64,000 nucleotides of DNA, from contig NZ_CP035033.1 of the NCBI RefSeq assembly GCF_004028275.1, positions 434,001 through 498,000 of the forward strand. Reading direction: 5' to 3'. This stretch comes from Hydrogenovibrio thermophilus (lineage in GTDB: Bacteria; Pseudomonadota; Gammaproteobacteria; Thiomicrospirales; Thiomicrospiraceae). Position numbers and translations under genes: made by a program. Under the pieces are notes generated by a model. The model was not told the origin of the DNA, made no database searches, and saw only the letters and a list, made by a program, of their open reading frames with translations. This document shows positions 32,142 through 40,657 of the stretch, piece after piece; the first letter of the stretch is position 1, and every line of letters starts with the position of its first letter.

Positions 32142-32741
32142 ATGGCGCGTGGAGTAAATAAAGTCATTTTGGTTGGTACCCTGGGGCGTGACCCTGAGGT
32201 GAAATACGCTGCAAACGGTAATGCGATTGCCAACCTGAATGTCGCCACTTCCGAGCAATGGACGGATAAGGCGTCCGGTCAAAAACAGGAAAAAACCGAA
32301 TGGCACCGTGTGGTGATTTTCGGTAAATTGGCGGAAATTGCCGGGCAATATCTGACCAAAGGCTCACAAGTGTATTTGGAAGGCAAATTGCAAACGCGTA
32401 AATGGCAGGACCAAAATACCGGGCAAGATCGTTACTCCACGGAAGTTGTCATCGACTTTAACGGGCAAATGCAGATGTTGGGCGGCGGGAGCCGTCAGTC
32501 GGATGCCCCTTACGATAACGGCTTCGGTGCACAAGGCGCGCCACAGATGACACAACCGAATGCCATGGGCGGTAACCCAATGGGTGGTGCACCGCAACAG
32601 CAAGCCGCACAGCCGAACTACGGGCAACAGACGCCTCAACAGGGTTTTGGTGGTGGTCAGCAGCCAAATAACCCGGCTCCGGCGCAACAGGTTCCGGCTT
32701 ATACTGCCAATGACTTCGACGATGATGATGTGCCATTTTGA
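32142..32741 (+). CDS. ssb: Single-stranded DNA-binding protein
   Basis: SSB coats single-stranded DNA during replication and repair. The OB fold occupies residues 1-110 ([49 protein letters not shown], with only family-typical parts quoted). A Gly/Gln/Pro/Asn-rich linker follows. The C-terminal tip DFDDDDVPF, which binds partner proteins, is intact. Length is 199 aa. An intrinsic terminator lies 53 bases after the stop. The recombinase segment begins just beyond it. Confidence 0.97.
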
Positions 32742-32793
32742 CCTTTACAATAAAGTAAAGTGTAGACAAAAAAAGATGGAGTATGTCGTAAAG

Positions 32794-32814
32794 CCCCTAA
32801 AAAGGGGTTTTTTT
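32794..32814 (+). terminator. Intrinsic terminator of ssb
   Basis: CCCCT (32794-32798), loop AAAA, AGGGG (32803-32807), then T x7. Confidence 0.85.
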
Positions 32815-32842
32815 ATATCTGAAGGTTTTTAAGTTGTCGAAA

Positions 32843-32856
32843 AATGTTGATAAAAA
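32843..32856 (+). repeat. Left copy of a 14-bp direct repeat, candidate attachment core
   Basis: AATGTTGATAAAAA here is repeated exactly at 39754-39767. It lies between the ssb terminator and the first recombinase gene, where the end of an integrated element is expected. Inference only. Confidence 0.5.
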
Positions 32857-32859
32857 GCA

Positions 32860-32888
32860 TTGCAGAGTTATTTGTAATTTGATACAAC
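32860..32888 (+). promoter_or_regulatory. Possible promoter of the recombinase operon
   Basis: TTGCAG (32860-32865), 17 bases, TACAAC (32883-32888), just inside the left repeat. Both hexamers are only partial matches to consensus. Confidence 0.3.
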
Positions 32889-32920
32889 TGAGAAAGTTTA
32901 TGAAAAGTTAGGCTGTTGCG

Positions 32921-34261
32921 ATGAAAGTCGAAAACGTTATCTTTGAATCAGGGGAACGGTTTCCAATGCTCATTGATGAGGATGGCGTGCCTGATTTCTG
33001 GACAACGCTTTACACAAGCCAGCGGCTTCGTCTTTCTCATACTCAGAGCTCTATCATTGCTTTTCTCCGAAGCATGATCCATTTCCAGAAATGGCAGCAA
33101 ATCCAGCAGCGAGATGTGATTGCTGAATTCAGGCAGCAGCGACTTGTGAGTTTGAATGACATCGAAAGCCTGAAAGAATTTTGCAGTCTGTCTGATGAAT
33201 ATGTCAGCAAAGCGCTTCACGCTAAGCCAAAGCGTAAAGTGGTGAAGATGAACGATTTCAGGCTCCCTTCTTCGCCACTAAGCATAGTAGGCAATGATCT
33301 TCAGAAACGACGCTTACATGACATTGCTGTGTTTTTGAATTTTGTGGGGCGAGAAATTTTAAAGCGTAAGAACAACGCTGCCACCTTGCTTGAGTTTAAT
33401 GAAAGCATGCTCAAGTCCTTCAAATCCTTCTACCCCAGAAGCCGCAACAAGTCATACAGAGCAAGACTTGAGCAGGCAAGCAAAGAATCCTTCGAAGCGT
33501 TTATCAAGGTTTTTGATCCTGAGTCAAAGGACAATCCTTTTAAAGGGTATGACAATAAGCTGAGAAACTACCTGCTCGTACAGTTGCTCTACTGGACAGG
33601 AGCCCGTTCAGGCGAAATCATTTCTTTGACAGTCGATGACGTCGATTATGACATTGAGCACCCATCAGTCACCATCAACAGGCGTCATGATGATCCGTAT
33701 GATTCCAGAAAGCTTCAGCCTGTCACCAAAACAAAAAGCCGAAAAGTTCAGATTCCACCTGCGCTGGTGGATGACCTTGATTACTACATCAACAAGGTCA
33801 GAAGCCGCTATCGCCAATCAAAAAAACACCCCTACATCTTTGTCAGCCATAAGGGTAAAACCAGTGGCCAGCCGATTTCAGATGTGACCTTCAATAACCG
33901 AGTGATCGGCACCGTCAAATCAATCAATCCAGAGCTGTTTAAGCTGGTCAGGCGTCATGGTTTTCGTCATTACTTTAATGAAAGATTGTCTGACCAGATT
34001 GATGCTCACAATAAACGCATCGATGGTGAGATTGCCGAGGCAGAGGCGCAAGGGCTGACCGAGCAGGTCAAACAGCTCAAGTCGAGGAAAATTTCGCATC
34101 AGCAGGAAGTGGATATGCGAGCGGACCTGATGGGACATGTCAGTAAAGACTCTGCTCGCCCTTATCTTGAAAGGCATGTGAAGAGAAAAGCCAACCAGGT
34201 TCATAAAGAAATGATGGAACAAATGAGTCGTACCGTTAGAGAGCAAGGAGAGCGCCCGTGA
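32921..34261 (+). CDS. Tyrosine recombinase 1 of 3 (446 aa)
   Basis: A phage-integrase-type site-specific recombinase, which breaks and joins DNA through a Tyr-linked intermediate. The C-terminal catalytic domain shows the complete pentad pattern: Arg229 in TGARSGE, His346 and Arg349 in RRHGFRHYF, His406 in DLMGHVSKD and the likely nucleophile Tyr415 in ARPYLERH. An insertion rich in charged residues (about 365-400) separates HxxR from the last His. The N-terminal 190 residues fit a core-binding domain. TTAGG precedes the ATG. It is coupled to the next gene by a GTGA overlap. Long for the family. Confidence 0.88.
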   Translation: MKVENVIFESGERFPMLIDEDGVPDFWTTLYTSQRLRLSHTQSSIIAFLRSMIHFQKWQQIQQRDVIAEFRQQRLVSLNDIESLKEFCSLSDEYVSKALHAKPKRKVVKMNDFRLPSSPLSIVGNDLQKRRLHDIAVFLNFVGREILKRKNNAATLLEFNESMLKSFKSFYPRSRNKSYRARLEQASKESFEAFIKVFDPESKDNPFKGYDNKLRNYLLVQLLYWTGARSGEIISLTVDDVDYDIEHPSVTINRRHDDPYDSRKLQPVTKTKSRKVQIPPALVDDLDYYINKVRSRYRQSKKHPYIFVSHKGKTSGQPISDVTFNNRVIGTVKSINPELFKLVRRHGFRHYFNERLSDQIDAHNKRIDGEIAEAEAQGLTEQVKQLKSRKISHQQEVDMRADLMGHVSKDSARPYLERHVKRKANQVHKEMMEQMSRTVREQGERP

Positions 34262-35832
34262 AGCCATTAGCCAGTCAACCAGGCCAGCCAGGAAAGGTCG
34301 ATATTCGAATATCCAAGATGGGGTATGAGTTTGATGTATACAACGATTTTTGGGAATTAGATAACTCAAAAAAAATTAATTGGCGATTGGTGAAAAAGCT
34401 GAACTTGGATAAAGATCTTGAAGAAGGCTTTAGAAGGGAGTTAGCCGTTTTTGCCTCTGAGCATTCAGCTTATTACACAGTCAACACTTTCGATTGGTTT
34501 AAAAGGATTTTTGTTGTTACTGAAGATAGCAAGTTAAAGGTATCAACGATTCAAAACTATCTTTCTGAGGTTGGTGCAGATGAATACAAGCTTGGGTCAG
34601 TAAAAGCTTTTGTTTTGGACTGCTACGACAAGGGCTATCCAGGCATATCGAGCGATGTCGCAAAATTTCTCGAATCACTTCACCTAAAAGGGAATGAAAA
34701 GGGTAAAGCGGTATCGAAGGGCTGTCCACATAGTGGTGCTTATACCATGCAAGAACAGCAGAGCATTCTTGAGTGGGCGGTCAACGCATTCACTGATGAT
34801 GAACTTAGTCTGGAGGAGTATGCTTGGTTGATCCTAAGTATGTATACCGGAGCACGTCCTGTGCAATTAAGAGCGCTTGCTAGAGAAGATTTGTTATTTG
34901 ATAAAGCGATCAGTGGAGAAAATCAATATCAACTTCGCATTCCCGTTGCAAAGCAGCGTTCTACGAAGTTCCGAGAAGAGTTTAAACAGATTGAGATCGA
35001 TGAAGATTTAGCGCTTTTGCTTTTTAATCAATTTGAAAAAACAAAAGCCGAGATCAAGAAGCAAGTGAATAAAGACCTACCCAAAGAGCTGGAGAAAAAC
35101 ATTCCAGTTTTCCCAAGCCAACAGGCAATTAAAAGCATTCGCTCTTATGAAGAAGCTAAAGCCACGCTTTTAGGTCAAAACAGACCGGATGTGTTATTTA
35201 TGACTTCATCAGGTGCTCGGAATCTGATGAATGCGGTTTCCAAAAAATGCATGGCTAGAACCGAACGACTAGAAGGTGAGTTCATTAAGCTGACCTCTCG
35301 AAGGTTCCGCTATACGCTCGGCACAAATGCTTTCAGGAGAGGGCTAGGTGCTTACCATATTGCAGAAATTCTGGGCCACAAGGACATTCAAAACGTGAAG
35401 GTTTACACCGAGAACACGCATGAGGTGGTCGACCTAATTGACGAGGCAATGGCACCAGTGTTGGCTCCCTTGGCCCAGGCATTTGCTGGAACATTAATTG
35501 AAAGTGAAAGAGATGCCATTCGAGCTAACGATCCAAGAAGCCGAATAAAAGCCGGAGATGGTTCTGGCGTGGGTAACTGCGGAGAGTTTGGTTTTTGCGC
35601 CTCAGGAGGCCGTCAGTGCTATTTATGTACAAAATTTCAACCCTGGGTACATGGCCAACATGAAAAAGTATTGCAATCGGTTTTGGATGAGCGGGAAACA
35701 CTGCGAAAACGAGGGGCAAGCGAATTTGTGGTCCAGTCTACTGACCGGCTTGTTATGGCGGTGACACAAGTGGTTCAACTTTGCCAGGAAGCCAAGGAAG
35801 AAGAGTCCGTCTTGGAGGTGAGTGATGAGTAA
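34258..35832 (+). CDS. Tyrosine recombinase 2 of 3 (524 aa), His-to-Arg variant
   Basis: Starts at the GTG at 34258, which has AAGGAG seven bases upstream and overlaps the previous stop by four bases. Catalytic-domain marks are Arg200 (TGARPVQ), Arg351 (SRRFRYTLGTNAF), His374 (ILGHKD) and Tyr383 (VKVYTEN). The usual His of HxxR is Arg348. After the domain comes a cysteine cluster, CGEFGFCASGGRQCYLC (spacing C-x5-C-x6-C-x2-C), likely a zinc-binding tail. Similar Cys-rich tails are known in multi-recombinase transposons such as Tn554. Target and direction of action are unknown. Confidence 0.85.
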   Translation: MKPLASQPGQPGKVDIRISKMGYEFDVYNDFWELDNSKKINWRLVKKLNLDKDLEEGFRRELAVFASEHSAYYTVNTFDWFKRIFVVTEDSKLKVSTIQNYLSEVGADEYKLGSVKAFVLDCYDKGYPGISSDVAKFLESLHLKGNEKGKAVSKGCPHSGAYTMQEQQSILEWAVNAFTDDELSLEEYAWLILSMYTGARPVQLRALAREDLLFDKAISGENQYQLRIPVAKQRSTKFREEFKQIEIDEDLALLLFNQFEKTKAEIKKQVNKDLPKELEKNIPVFPSQQAIKSIRSYEEAKATLLGQNRPDVLFMTSSGARNLMNAVSKKCMARTERLEGEFIKLTSRRFRYTLGTNAFRRGLGAYHIAEILGHKDIQNVKVYTENTHEVVDLIDEAMAPVLAPLAQAFAGTLIESERDAIRANDPRSRIKAGDGSGVGNCGEFGFCASGGRQCYLCTKFQPWVHGQHEKVLQSVLDERETLRKRGASEFVVQSTDRLVMAVTQVVQLCQEAKEEESVLEVSDE

Positions 35833-37885
35833 TGTTGTTTCCATTTGGCAGCCAAGTCATGAAAGAGAGGGTCGTAAAAACTTGCTAGAGTTTGTCCGGT
35901 TCGCAAAAAATGAACTGACGCTCTATTCAGACCAGGAAGATGATTTTGGAAAAGGTTGGGATGCTGTAAAGTGGCGTACAAGGCATGCCAGGCCTGTGGC
36001 AATGGTTTTTGGGTTTGGCTCCAGTTACTACACTGTTGATGAGCCATTCGAGCAGCCATTTATGGACTTTGCCAAGGCGTTTGTGAGGCAAGAGCAGTCA
36101 ATCGATGAAAAGGTAAGCGTTTCAAGCTGGATCTATGTCTTAAGGTTGGTATACAGGTCTTTACAGGCTCAATACCCAGGGAAAAATACAGATATCTTAG
36201 ATTTCAATGCAGACACACAAGTGTCAGTTGAACATGCAATCAGAACAGCCTCAGTGGCGGACAAGAAGAAATACCACTACGGCGGTAAGTTTGCTAAATT
36301 TAACCAGTGGTTGTTTGACAAAAAAATCATTTTAACTCTTCCAGAATGGCAAAACCCTTTCAAAAGAGGGGTAGATAAAATAGAGCAACTGGATGAGAGC
36401 TCTAAGAAGTGGAGAGACGAACGTTGCCCCTCTCAGCATGTAATGTTCACTTTGGCAGACTGTTTTGCGAAAGCAGAGACAGTCAAAGATCGCTATTACA
36501 CGAGCATAATGGTGCTGTTATGTTTTGCCCCTGGCAGGGCCAGTGAAATTGCCAGTCTGACTGTCAACTCCCTTCAAGAGGAAGAAGGCCGATTTTATGT
36601 CTCCTGGTTTAGTGAAAAAGGGTTTGGTGATACCAAAAAGTGGGTTCCAACGGCAATGGTTGATGTTGTCAAAGAAGCGTTCAATCGGTTGATTGAGATA
36701 GGCGAACCTGCCAGAAAAGCCGCAAAACATGCTTATGATTATCCAGATAAATTCATGATTCACTCAGAATGTACAACTCCTAAGGACTATCCTCAAAATA
36801 AACCGCTCGGAGCCATTGATTTTGCGAATGCATCAGGCATCCAAAGTCCTTCACCTAGAAATAAGAACGTAACGACAAAGGTATTTCGGCAACAGTGGGT
36901 TAAACAGCTTTTAGAAAAAGGCGAACCGACTTACCACGATCTGAATAAGCTGGTTCATAAAAAATATAAAAAAAAGGACTGGCCAGACAACCCAATGTCT
37001 GGCAGACCCGTTTGGGAAAATCTATGCTTGATTCGTGAGTATGAAGCCCATGCGTCTGCCCCCACTAAGCTATATAGCTGGGTCATGCCATCGGTTAATG
37101 AAATCAATTCTCAAATAAAGAAACGAACGGAAGCAGTATCAACCCTCTGGGAACGCTTTGGCGTGAAGGATGAGGACGGTTCAGAAATTAGTTTGACCTC
37201 ACACCAGTTGAGGGTGTGGTTGAACACGCACGCCCATGATGGCGGCATGAGTGATTACCTGTTGGCACAATGGTCAGGTCGAGCTGATATTGAACAAAAC
37301 AAAGCCTATGACGCTCGAACTGAGGGAGAAAAAGCAAGATTAAAAAATGAAATCATGAATGCAGATCAAAGCAATGGGCCATCGGCTCTGACGATACATC
37401 GTTCAAAAAGCCCGGTACCTTTGTCGAAGTTCGGCATTAATCGCACAGGGGTTGCGGACTTTACCGGACTGGGCTTTTGTGTTCATAATTTTGCTCAAAG
37501 CCCATGTACCAAGGCAGGAGAGTGCGTGACCTGTAAAGACCACGTTTGCATGAAAGGGCTGCCTGATACTCTGGAAAATTTGGAGGAGCTGGAAAAGCTT
37601 GTCGCTGAGCAATTGGATGTAGCCAAAGCTGCCGCAGATGACCATACTTTTGGGGCTGATAGGTGGGTCACTCATCTTGGGTGGAAGTTGGCGCACCTTA
37701 GAACTATCATTGCAGGAATGAAGGATGAAAGTGTCAAAGATGGAACCTTGATACGAATCCCGGTTGAACATGATCCGAGTCCTACAAGGCGAGCGCTTGA
37801 GGCAAAAGGCGAGACCACTGAGCTGCAAGAGGAAGACGAAAAAGCTTCTTTGGACCTTAAAAAGCAAATGCTGGGAATTTTCTGA
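35825..37885 (+). CDS. Tyrosine recombinase 3 of 3 (686 aa), His-to-Trp variant
   Basis: The ATG at 35825 has GGAGG six bases upstream, inside the end of the previous gene. Arg238 (PGRASEIASL), His460 and Arg463 (SHQLRVWLNT), Trp483 (AQWSGR) and Tyr495 (NKAYDAR) fit a tyrosine recombinase whose second His is replaced by Trp. A Cys-rich tail, CVHNFAQSPCTKAGECVTCK followed by a further Cys, resembles a zinc ribbon. Size and tail recall TnpB of Tn554 (630 aa), though I see no close identity. The long N-terminal part (1-200) is unassigned. Confidence 0.8.
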   Translation: MSNVVSIWQPSHEREGRKNLLEFVRFAKNELTLYSDQEDDFGKGWDAVKWRTRHARPVAMVFGFGSSYYTVDEPFEQPFMDFAKAFVRQEQSIDEKVSVSSWIYVLRLVYRSLQAQYPGKNTDILDFNADTQVSVEHAIRTASVADKKKYHYGGKFAKFNQWLFDKKIILTLPEWQNPFKRGVDKIEQLDESSKKWRDERCPSQHVMFTLADCFAKAETVKDRYYTSIMVLLCFAPGRASEIASLTVNSLQEEEGRFYVSWFSEKGFGDTKKWVPTAMVDVVKEAFNRLIEIGEPARKAAKHAYDYPDKFMIHSECTTPKDYPQNKPLGAIDFANASGIQSPSPRNKNVTTKVFRQQWVKQLLEKGEPTYHDLNKLVHKKYKKKDWPDNPMSGRPVWENLCLIREYEAHASAPTKLYSWVMPSVNEINSQIKKRTEAVSTLWERFGVKDEDGSEISLTSHQLRVWLNTHAHDGGMSDYLLAQWSGRADIEQNKAYDARTEGEKARLKNEIMNADQSNGPSALTIHRSKSPVPLSKFGINRTGVADFTGLGFCVHNFAQSPCTKAGECVTCKDHVCMKGLPDTLENLEELEKLVAEQLDVAKAAADDHTFGADRWVTHLGWKLAHLRTIIAGMKDESVKDGTLIRIPVEHDPSPTRRALEAKGETTELQEEDEKASLDLKKQMLGIF

Positions 37886-38316
37886 TGCCGAAAATAATCA
37901 TCGGAGATGAAGAAAAAAGGCAGATTCTGTCCATCATAGACGCCTGGTCAGGAAGATTAACCTGGGACGCTTTGTGCGAGCGAATTACACGGGAAATGAA
38001 ACTCGATGCACCACTGTCCAGGCACACCTTGTTTCGATATGATGAAATCAAGCTGGCGTTCAAAGAAAAAAAGAAATCCCTCAAGGGGCAACCACTCTCA
38101 GAGCCCGAGATCGAAGAAAGAGACCTTGCCAAAGCATATGAGCGAATCAAGTCTCTTGAGAGCCAGAACAGACGTTTAATTAAGCAGGTGGAGGCATTTC
38201 AAGAGCAGTTCGTGAGGTGGCAGAATAACCTCTATCGCATGGGGGTTGATATGGATAAGCTTTCAAGTGAGCTTGATAGACCCTTGGTTGATAATAATCG
38301 GAGTGGGCAGAAATGA
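37885..38316 (+). CDS. Small coiled-coil accessory protein of the recombinase operon
   Basis: A 143-aa protein with an N-terminal basic helical part (WSGRLTWDALCERITREM) and a long heptad-like stretch at about residues 85-130 (AKAYERIKSLESQNRRLIKQ onward). Its ATG overlaps the preceding stop by one base (TGATG). Position and character match TnpC of Tn554, a small accessory factor that influences insertion orientation, or DUF6262-type partners of recombinases. The role is inferred from context only. Confidence 0.6.
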   Translation: MPKIIIGDEEKRQILSIIDAWSGRLTWDALCERITREMKLDAPLSRHTLFRYDEIKLAFKEKKKSLKGQPLSEPEIEERDLAKAYERIKSLESQNRRLIKQVEAFQEQFVRWQNNLYRMGVDMDKLSSELDRPLVDNNRSGQK

Positions 38317-38476: not shown

Positions 38477-38510
38477 TAAAATCCTGGATTCAAGTATTAA
38501 CTGCAACACC
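38477..38510 (+). repeat. IS30 terminal inverted repeat, transposase 3' side
   Basis: Begins TAAAATCCTGGATTCAAG and ends CTGCAACACC. The transposase stop codon (38490-38492) lies inside it. Confidence 0.85.
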
Positions 38511-39467
38511 CAGCTTTAATTTCTCAGCTTTCAGCATTTCCAGCGGAGACTGAAACCCGTGTCGCTTTCTGGGCCGATGGTTGAGCTTGTCTTCAACCCT
38601 TTGTATTTCTTCGTCTGTCACATCTTCAAAGGCCGTACCTTTGGGGAAGTACTGGCGAATCAGACCGTTGGTATTCTCATTCGTGCCACGCTCCCAGCTA
38701 TGATACGGGCGTGCAAAAAAGAATGAACAATCCATGGCCTGGCTGACCTTGTGGTGATGCGAGAATTCTTTACCGTTATCTGAAGTGGTGCTCTTGACCA
38801 CCATGCCCGAGAACGCATCAATCATCGCACTGGCAGTCAGCTCTGCCGTAGAGCGCATGACTTTCCGAATGCGGCTCAATCCGGTTTTTCGCTCAACCAA
38901 CGTAACGAGCGTAGCCAGGCGTTTTCCCTGCACTGAGTCGGCCTCCCAGTCGCCCAGACGTTGGCGAGTATCAACAACGTCAGGCCGCTGCTCAATGCCG
39001 ACCCGACCGATGATCCGGCCACGCCGATCCTGACTGCCATAGCGCCGCCGGGTTTTACGAACCTTGTGGCGAAGGTGCTTGTAAAGTTCGCCACCCTGAG
39101 CCTTGTCACGCAGCAGATACTGGTAAATCCATTCATGGCTGACTGTGACCGAATGCATTCTTGCCAGGTACCCCGATATCTGCTCAGGCGACCACTGATA
39201 CTGCGTCAGATAATAATGCACCTGCTCAATGAGCCAGGCGTCTGTTATTCGTTGTTTATCAGCGTTCTTGCGCCGATCGTCTGCCTTATCCTGTGCCATC
39301 GGTGCCCAGTATTTACAGGGCGATTGCCGATTGCGTCTGAGCTCTCGGCTAATGGTTGAGGCGGCTCTGTTTAAGGCTTTGGCAATCTGCCTTAAGCTCA
39401 ATCCCAGTTCAAAATGAAACTGAATATGGTATCGTTCTTCAATGGTCAACTGTCTGAACCGTGTCAT
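38490..39467 (-). CDS. IS30-family transposase
   Basis: A DDE transposase of 325 aa from the ATG at 39467, which has AGGTG six bases upstream. A GTG at 39524 would give 344 aa. The N-terminal part has the IS30 helix-turn-helix (LTIEERYHIQF, SLRQIAKALNRAASTISREL). Catalytic residues are Asp177 (GDWEADSV), Asp230 (TSDNGKEF) and Glu264 (GTNENTNGLIRQYFPKG), a DD(33)E spacing as in the family. No frameshift or stop is seen, so it is probably active. Confidence 0.95.
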   Translation of the reverse strand: MTRFRQLTIEERYHIQFHFELGLSLRQIAKALNRAASTISRELRRNRQSPCKYWAPMAQDKADDRRKNADKQRITDAWLIEQVHYYLTQYQWSPEQISGYLARMHSVTVSHEWIYQYLLRDKAQGGELYKHLRHKVRKTRRRYGSQDRRGRIIGRVGIEQRPDVVDTRQRLGDWEADSVQGKRLATLVTLVERKTGLSRIRKVMRSTAELTASAMIDAFSGMVVKSTTSDNGKEFSHHHKVSQAMDCSFFFARPYHSWERGTNENTNGLIRQYFPKGTAFEDVTDEEIQRVEDKLNHRPRKRHGFQSPLEMLKAEKLKLGVAVNT

Positions 39468-39538
39468 CTTTGGCACCTGAATGTTTTGTGTGGGAACAAC
39501 CATTCTAGGGCAGTTGGCCTCCACATCATTATTTTTCA

Positions 39539-39572
39539 GGTGTTGCGGTTATTATCTGAATTCAGGATTTTA
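39539..39572 (-). repeat. IS30 terminal inverted repeat, transposase 5' side
   Basis: On the minus strand it begins TAAAATCCTGAATTCAG and ends CCGCAACACC, matching the other end at 29 of 34 positions. Confidence 0.85.
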
Positions 39573-39753
39573 AATCCTTTTTGAATTTATTTTATTGGAT
39601 GTTTAAAATCTTTTTAAAAAAGATATGAAATTTGAATTATTTTTATTTAAACATTATTGTTTTTTGTATGATGTTAACTATCAATAGAATAGTTTGCGTG
39701 GGATTTGGGGTGTCCTGAGCTAGAGAAGAGGGTTGCTTTCTGGGTGAGTTGCG

Positions 39754-39767
39754 AATGTTGATAAAAA
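39754..39767 (+). repeat. Right copy of the 14-bp direct repeat, candidate attachment core
   Basis: Exact copy of 32843-32856 (AATGTTGATAAAAA). It is also the left arm of an inverted repeat with 39790-39805. Confidence 0.5.
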
Positions 39768-39805
39768 CCTCAGGTTTGCCGAAAAAGCTGGTTTTTGTGA
39801 ACATT
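39754..39805. repeat. Inverted repeat at the right candidate end
   Basis: AATGTTGATAAAAACC (39754-39769) and GGTTTTTGTGAACATT (39790-39805) are complementary at 14 of 16 positions around a 20-base centre. Paired arms of this kind are what a tyrosine recombinase core site would have, but the spacing is wide. Confidence 0.5.
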
Positions 39806-39931
39806 CTCAGAGATTTTGTTGATCAAGGCTTATGTTAACCGGTTGAAGAGAAAGATAATTTCACGAAAGAGCGGTCAGGTTTTGTAAAAATAACCATTTT
39901 AAAGGTTGATGCTTGTCTAACCGGTTGTTAT

Positions 39932-39957: not shown

Positions 39958-40033
39958 GTTTCTGCAGGAATGATGGTGTTTTTTGTTTAATGCTTTGGTG
40001 GATTGGCCGATACCTTCTATAGAGGTGTCTAGG

Positions 40034-40657
40034 ATGAATAAAATGGAAATTAGCCCAGCGTTAAGATATTTCTTTAAGAAGTTGGAGCGTAAGTCGGAAG
40101 AGTTGCGCCAGGTTCACCTTCTGGAGAAAGACTTGAAAAAAACCGTGCCGTTCGACGAGGTGGAGCGGTTTGCGCGCTCGATTATGACTCAGAATATTTT
40201 CATTTACACCGTCGGTGTGAATGGCAAGCGGGAATCGACCATTTTGACGAAGGCGATGTTCAGTATCAATAAAGTGGTGCGTATCTATTACAGTACCAGC
40301 TTTGATGAGAGTCAGCAGGGGTTCTTGCGGTTGAGCCCGGATGTCGATCAGCAGTTGATTCTGGTGGAGCGTTTGCATGGCTTCCGGCCAAAGCCGGAAT
40401 TGCTGTACGCCAGTAAAGACGAGTGTCACGTGATTCGATTTTTCGTTAACTGGCTGTTACGCCGAATCGATTGGGATAAAACCAAAATCGATAATCTGGA
40501 CCTGTATAAACGGTTTGTGGATATTGAACGCAAGGAACTGGAAGAAGCGATAGCCGCGGAAGAAGCCGAGCGCGAGCACCACGAATTGCAGCGGACCCTA
40601 GACAAACATTTTGGCAGCAACAATAAGCATAAAATGCCGTCGCGTTTGCGTCAGTAA
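40034..40657 (+). CDS. Unidentified conserved-looking protein (207 aa)
   Basis: I do not recognise the family. The ATG at 40034 has AGAGGTG seven bases upstream; an open frame back to 39983 runs through the gap. The protein is soluble, rich in charged residues, with no signal peptide or membrane segment. It has a helical, strongly charged C-terminal part (RKELEEAIAAEEAEREHHEL, residues about 167-186) that could be a coiled coil. The middle contains INKVVRIYYSTSFDESQQGF. It is convergent with ispB, one base apart, and its codon use matches the surrounding chromosome rather than the recombinase element. Confidence 0.75.
   Translation: MNKMEISPALRYFFKKLERKSEELRQVHLLEKDLKKTVPFDEVERFARSIMTQNIFIYTVGVNGKRESTILTKAMFSINKVVRIYYSTSFDESQQGFLRLSPDVDQQLILVERLHGFRPKPELLYASKDECHVIRFFVNWLLRRIDWDKTKIDNLDLYKRFVDIERKELEEAIAAEEAEREHHELQRTLDKHFGSNNKHKMPSRLRQ

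Follow-up and report, generated by a model that had tools for sequence, protein, structure and literature searches.

The window analysed here, a 64,000-nucleotide stretch of the Hydrogenovibrio thermophilus chromosome (the host genome consists of one contig of 2.61 Mb), carries four plus-strand open reading frames at 32921-38316, each of which overlaps the next. The ORF listing of the window bears out the preliminary description of this DNA, both for the order and sizes of the genes (446, 524, 686 and 143 codons) and for their junctions: a GTGA overlap at 34258-34261, a GGAGG inside the second gene just 5′ of the start of the third, and a TGATG at 37883-37887. For reasons developed below, we refer to these genes as ginA (32921-34261), ginB (34258-35832), ginC (35825-37885) and ginD (37885-38316). 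The ginC frame begins at 35822, giving 687 amino acids (aa) if translation starts at its GTG and 686 aa if it starts at the ATG of 35825. All three larger proteins match PF00589, the tyrosine recombinase family, above its cut-off of 27.1 bits, with 54.7 bits for GinA, 35.4 bits for GinB and 28.6 bits for the large recombinase-like GinC. In addition, GinB is a full-length match to the NCBIfam model NF041502, "site-specific integrase" (564.9 bits, cut-off 350). The small, putative helper protein GinD gave no family in NCBIfam, Pfam (sub-threshold matches only) or other family searches; it was recognized by BLASTP matches to the fourth gene of other gin loci.

The operon lies 3′ of ssb (32142-32741, plus strand; 199 aa, PF00436), the sole ssb match in the genome. 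The final codons of this gene contain a 7-nt core, CCATTTT (32733-32739; attL), which recurs as a direct repeat at 39894-39900 (attR), within AACCATTTTAA (39892-39902). The two cores agree at 7/7 positions, and CCATTTTGA and CCATTTTAA at 8/9. The right border is also visible by comparison with the closest sister genome, G009, whose homology to the window ends at the end of ssb and resumes at 39896, at AACCATTTTAA. From core to core, the element thus delimited measures 7,161 bp, or 6,065 bp without an IS30 of 1,096 bp, leaving the operon and ∼660 bp of AT-rich DNA. Its left end (32742-32920, 31% GC) contains a terminator-like hairpin 3′ of ssb (32790-32811; 1 found in a looser scan versus a shuffle mean of 0.1, fold z -2.32). 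Such a terminator of their own is seen in ssb-borne elements at 6/11 gin loci by a strict scan, and in the window element by the looser one.

Downstream of ginD, the element consists of 160 bp (34% GC), the IS30 and a final 321 bp (39573-39893, 31% GC) that run up to attR. The IS30 occupies 38477-39572 on the minus strand, has 34-nt inverted ends and encodes a transposase (38490-39524; NF033563, 290.9 bits). Because other copies sit in the chromosome, namely two at 97% identity plus one 79% fragment, a subsequent hop explains this one most simply, and IS30 most likely entered the element as a late passenger. The preliminary description had held that the operon carries no cargo. This is nearly correct, but the interval considered there stopped at 38316, while the element reaches to ∼39900 and includes the IS30. 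Just outside the element, the gene at 39983-40657 (likely start at 40034) encodes a conserved protein of ∼205 aa that adjoins ssb in 49/58 family genomes; it reached the cut-off of no NCBIfam or Pfam model and matched no PHROG.

The SSB protein ends in DDDDVPF-stop, and the core is the DNA of its Pro-Phe-stop tail. Since insertion restores CCATTTT at the junction, SSB stays intact. An attR pattern, WACCRTTYTRA, which was built after viewing the window junction and three others, has 1 plus-strand occurrence in the 64 kb, as compared to 12 for the looser CCRTTYTRR. A pattern search for attR found no match in the stretches searched of the P. aeruginosa plasmid pTROUS1, L038, L041 and L043, and no match assignable to a border in those of pPAD8, G401, L039 and L048.

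An independent view of the crossover was provided by a related element on E. coli IncN plasmids, which has the same core, CCATTTT. A 601-base query spanning its right end matched 150 records, of which 25 were listed at even steps. Among the matches listed, alignment to the three nearest island-free records begins at base 123, where CCGTTCTGA starts, and to more diverged records at base 129, 133 or 137; in five rows that have the island with another flank, it covers bases 1 to 129-132. These match borders place the crossover within ∼7-10 bases, and ssb is annotated under the match in 14 of the 25 listed rows. In the one empty plasmid that was opened, ssb runs directly into the right flank, and its SSB protein bears the same accession as that of the occupied plasmid; insertion therefore leaves SSB unchanged. 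A hint of inverted-repeat symmetry about the joined core (125/20,000 shuffles in the window) is notable in the window element only, the corresponding numbers being 3,102 for the IncN element and 2,042 and 10,023 for two islets, G003 and G008, described below.

The same four genes were found in the same order at 14 other loci, a count that takes in two sets truncated where a record or contig stops and leaves out one broken copy. Co-occurrence of this kind had been proposed as a check on the operon, and in the other gin loci opened all four genes indeed stand together. Counting the window, ssb lies directly upstream in 11 of the 14 loci with readable upstream DNA, a proportion that may be biased toward this target by a search seeded from an ssb-type element. 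Among 72,556 plasmid records, tblastn with GinC matched 83 (48 at ≥80% cover) and with GinB 99 (45 at ≥80% cover). Seven of these records were opened: five contain complete ssb-ginA-B-C-D sets (Xanthomonas, two P. aeruginosa, Citrobacter and E. coli), the set of a Pasteurella plasmid is cut by the record start, and a Shewanella plasmid has a broken copy that keeps the order and lacks ssb. Protein identity between the locus and the plasmid copies is 26-50%.

On the genome side, a scan of the genome collection with a single GinC returned two loci with this four-gene order, in the Alphaproteobacteria Sulfitobacter and Shimia. Genomes G283, G001 and G401 have the four genes in order with ssb upstream, G241 has them without ssb, and in G024 the set is cut at both contig ends. 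The GinC frame of G283 is open for 676 aa, and its first standard start codon gives 575 aa only. With the host counted, a 14-sequence GinB profile gave strong matches (E < 1e-190) in 4/58 genomes of the host family and strong matches in 3/369 genomes of the class sample; seven additional weak partial matches in the 58 family genomes were treated as other recombinases. Two loci with weak partial GinC matches, L050 in G310 (E 7.0e-5) and L051 in G376 (E 8.1e-4), were likewise excluded from the counts. At L050, genes 1, 2 and 3 are each weakly matched, in order (E 7e-9, 0.004 and 1e-10), and the third protein has 794 aa; by these similarities, it is possibly a distant multi-recombinase kind. A GinC profile also detected a full operon in order, without ssb, on a viral-collection contig (IMG/VR; L102, 3985-8762), and the GinB profile found no match in that collection. 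According to ORF reading, this contig has further genes for a relaxase-like protein and a separate tyrosine integrase, so it is perhaps a gin element nested in a mobilizable island.

Alignments of 13 GinA, 14 GinB and 13 GinC sequences allowed us to follow the active sites. The preliminary description had assigned tyrosine-recombinase residues to three of the proteins; they are present, but the set differs among the three. Each family has an invariant tyrosine, an invariant lysine and a pair of invariant arginines. In GinA, these are R229, K270, R349 and Y415, with H346 of the H346xxR349 motif kept and His or Trp at position 406 (H406 in the window). GinB has invariant R200, K232, R351 and Y383 and keeps H374, with no His at position 348 in 14/14 sequences (R348 in the window). 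GinC has R238, K265 and K272, R463 and Y495, all invariant, and keeps H460 of H460xxR463; at position 486, where a second His or Trp would be expected, 13/13 sequences have Arg. The residues of the viral-collection contig agree, as do those of the partial G283 GinC over the part compared.

The alignment of these 13 GinC sequences appears to contradict two published accounts: one denies GinC the RHRY motif, and most GinC proteins the catalytic tyrosine (PMC10214605); the other states that the first arginine is missing (PMC5385486). Judged by the aligned residues, a catalytic-type tyrosine and the first arginine are both present and invariant. Profile comparison aligned GinC with GinB (probability 81.1, E 1.2e-5), Y495 standing opposite Y383, and failed to match GinC to GinA (probability 0.4); the match of GinB to GinA was weak (19.6). 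Against PDB sequences, the GinA profile found 10 distinct sequences, mainly integrases and Xer recombinases, and the GinC profile had no match at E 0.1. AlphaFold2 models from four-sequence alignments were too poor for interpretation (mean pLDDT of 51.2 for GinC and 50.9 for GinB). We also observed a C-terminal cluster of invariant cysteines in GinB (C441, C447, C454, C457) and in GinC (C552, C561, C567, C570). The two clusters are partly aligned in the profile comparison, and each looks like a metal site.

Taken together, the locus is a real, intact-looking and nearly cargo-free GInt at the ssb site. GInts were described in 2017 by Bardaji et al. as a ginABCD operon followed by cargo of 2.5 to ≥70 kb and by a 3′ end, 0.2-0.4 kb long and rich in AT (PMC5385486), the 3′ end being poorly conserved and the direct repeats short and imperfect, 10-17 nt long (PMC5385486). 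As in other GInts (the Tn6571 group), for instance those at ssb in Pseudomonas and on E. coli IncN-type plasmids, the window locus has three tyrosine recombinase genes of rising size plus a small fourth gene for the helper, in the same order and on the same strand, and a site-specific insertion with short direct repeats at the end of ssb. Its 3′ end is likewise AT-rich, and the 321 bp between IS30 and attR fall within the published size. Its repeat is shorter than the published one if the core alone is counted. The ssb target fits as well, as a homologue of the same gene is the site of 6/11 GInts analysed across diverse species (PMC5385486), with attL overlapping the end of ssb and leaving the product unaltered (PMC5385486). 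The name is assigned through gene order, gene sizes, ssb target, att geometry and the E. coli and Pseudomonas relatives; the type elements are those in P. stutzeri DSM 4166 and P. syringae 1448A.

What sets the locus apart from published GInts is the near absence of cargo. Genes are present 3′ of ginD in 8 other gin loci, those whose downstream genes were read; here, we find 160 bp and an IS30 of a resident type. Given that the smallest cargo published for a GInt is 2.5 kb (PMC5385486), we regard the window element as essentially cargo-free. Because the gin operon has been called the characteristic feature of GInts (PMC5385486), we hold cargo to be variable and not defining. We are highly confident that the locus is a GInt, that is, a site-specific genomic island with a ginABCD operon whose attB is the DNA of the conserved SSB tail. 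The preliminary description had seen a larger combination without a name; the set is in fact a well-described family, named GInt since 2017 (PMC5385486), an outcome which that description had listed as counting against its reading. Its comparison to Tn554 did point the right way, since Tn6488 and Tn6571, which carry ginABCD, have been filed in a Tn554 family (PMC8865565). A study of E. coli defence islands classes GInt as a Tn6571-family transposon (PMC10121019). Likewise, the proposed site-specific integration module of three recombinases acting together is supported by relatives, in which both excision and integration need all four gin genes (PMC5385486).

It is very improbable that the locus represents a different multi-recombinase system, such as a strand-biased circularizing element (SE), a gamma-mobile-trio, a RIT or a strict Tn554. 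SEs are likewise site-specific, and of the four genes in their core, three encode proteins with a recombinase fold and one a small helper with a coiled coil (PMC10214605). Compared by description, however, they have the functional gene order intA, tfp, intB, srap, and the product of their second gene, Tfp, is catalytically degenerate (PMC10214605), whereas the second gene of the locus keeps R200, R351, H374 and Y383 in 14/14 sequences; SE and GInt proteins are moreover described as forming separate clusters (PMC10214605). RITs share the three adjacent, overlapping tyrosine recombinase genes, yet they span ∼3.5 kb in total, lack a fourth gene and are described without clear att sites (PMC3414803), as opposed to four genes in 5.4 kb here. 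Tn554 resembles the locus in combining several tyrosine recombinases with a small protein, TnpC, to which GinD is reported to bear low identity (PMC5385486); it has two recombinases, TnpA and TnpB (PMC10214605, PMC3414803), against three at the locus. As to the gamma-mobile-trio, it too is a mobile element with a tyrosine recombinase, and the first gene of the locus gave a weak match to GmtY; the score of 38 bits is far below the NCBIfam cut-off of 340 bits, and no other Gmt-named model matched at E up to 0.1. The gamma-mobile-trio is a three-gene set that carries defence cargo.

A GInt that has died, its cargo deleted and its excision lost, is a more serious alternative, though still an unlikely one. 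The lack of cargo and the IS30 inside the element would fit, and even active relatives seldom excise (PMC5385486). Against this, the four gin frames are open and the catalytic residues kept, the element has its two cores and a 3′ end that is AT-rich and matches the published size, and the IS30 sits outside the gin genes. With its frames open and both ends in place, the relic reading of the preliminary description finds no support, and we infer that the window copy may still be able to move.

Occupancy of the ssb site differs among species of the genus. In 10 of 11 same-genus genomes, host counted, ssb and the next conserved gene (39983-40657 in the window) lie on one contig; in G007, they are on different contigs. 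Measured between match coordinates, the two are separated by 126-199 bp in G002, G004, G006 and G010, by 749 bp in G005, 957 bp in G009, 3,014 bp in G008, 4,759 bp in G003, 7,244 bp in the host and 41,072 bp in G001. The site in G009 is occupied by a nitroreductase-like gene, with ATTTTAA in place of a full right core.

The longest interval, in the sister species G001 (L074-L076; C11:20000-63500), contains a second ginABCD at the same ssb site, together with ∼35 kb of cargo. The cargo includes Mokosh-like defence genes (MkoA, 1,834.8 bits; MkoB, 320.9 bits) and genes for a trimethylamine monooxygenase (841.4 bits, cut-off 675) and for sarcosine-oxidase-like, type III glutamine-synthetase-like, PurU and FolD proteins, a set that we take to serve the catabolism of methylated amines. 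No right core of the searched form was found near its right border. With GinB identity to the window protein just 32%, the two islands probably arrived separately.

Two intervals of intermediate length are gin-free islets flanked by cores. The one in G003 (L077:1004-5632) has CCGTTTT at both ends, ∼4.6 kb apart, and encodes an AraC-type regulator and an autotransporter; the one in G008 (L052:2440-5333) has CCGTTCT and CCGTTTT, ∼2.9 kb apart, and contains DsrE and MerR proteins and IS3-like ORFs. In tblastn searches, the window Gin proteins found nothing in either islet (best E 2.5). They may be GInts minus gin, passengers mobilized in trans or insertions of unrelated origin whose core arose by chance; for either islet alone, chance is possible since the loose motif occurs 12 times per 64 kb. 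We also considered whether the DNA 3′ of ssb in gin-free relatives might be a GInt remnant, which was weakened by a control: AC at positions 8-9 past the core is found in 9/11 gin loci but also in 14/19 gin-free ssb loci. With the likeness of the left ends thus weakened, the argument for the islets comes down to their cores. A bolder scenario, in which the minimal GInt acts as a helper that moves the non-autonomous G003 and G008 islets in trans and all three recombinases, including GinC, are catalytic with differently altered active sites that complement each other, is one to which we give little credence.

For the GInt of the window, relatives offer a model of movement, having been described to make staggered cuts of 6-7 nt and to form a low-frequency circle that integrates site-specifically (PMC5385486). 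By analogy, the Gin proteins would make such cuts, staggered by 6-7 nt, at attL and attR, freeing a circle that could re-enter at attB, the DNA encoding the SSB tail D-D-D-D-V-P-F-stop. The recombinases would presumably read this conserved SSB-tail sequence, and GinD may act as a TnpC-like helper, a role suggested by the authors of the GInt study (PMC5385486).

GInts carry defence and metabolic gene clusters between bacteria, and a natural copy that is nearly free of cargo shows what a GInt itself consists of. The window GInt would be a compact system in which to ask what makes three recombinases plus a helper necessary. The base-exact core also offers a simple reason for the choice of ssb by unrelated GInts: they target the DNA of the conserved SSB tail, hardly open to change by the host, and restore it intact.
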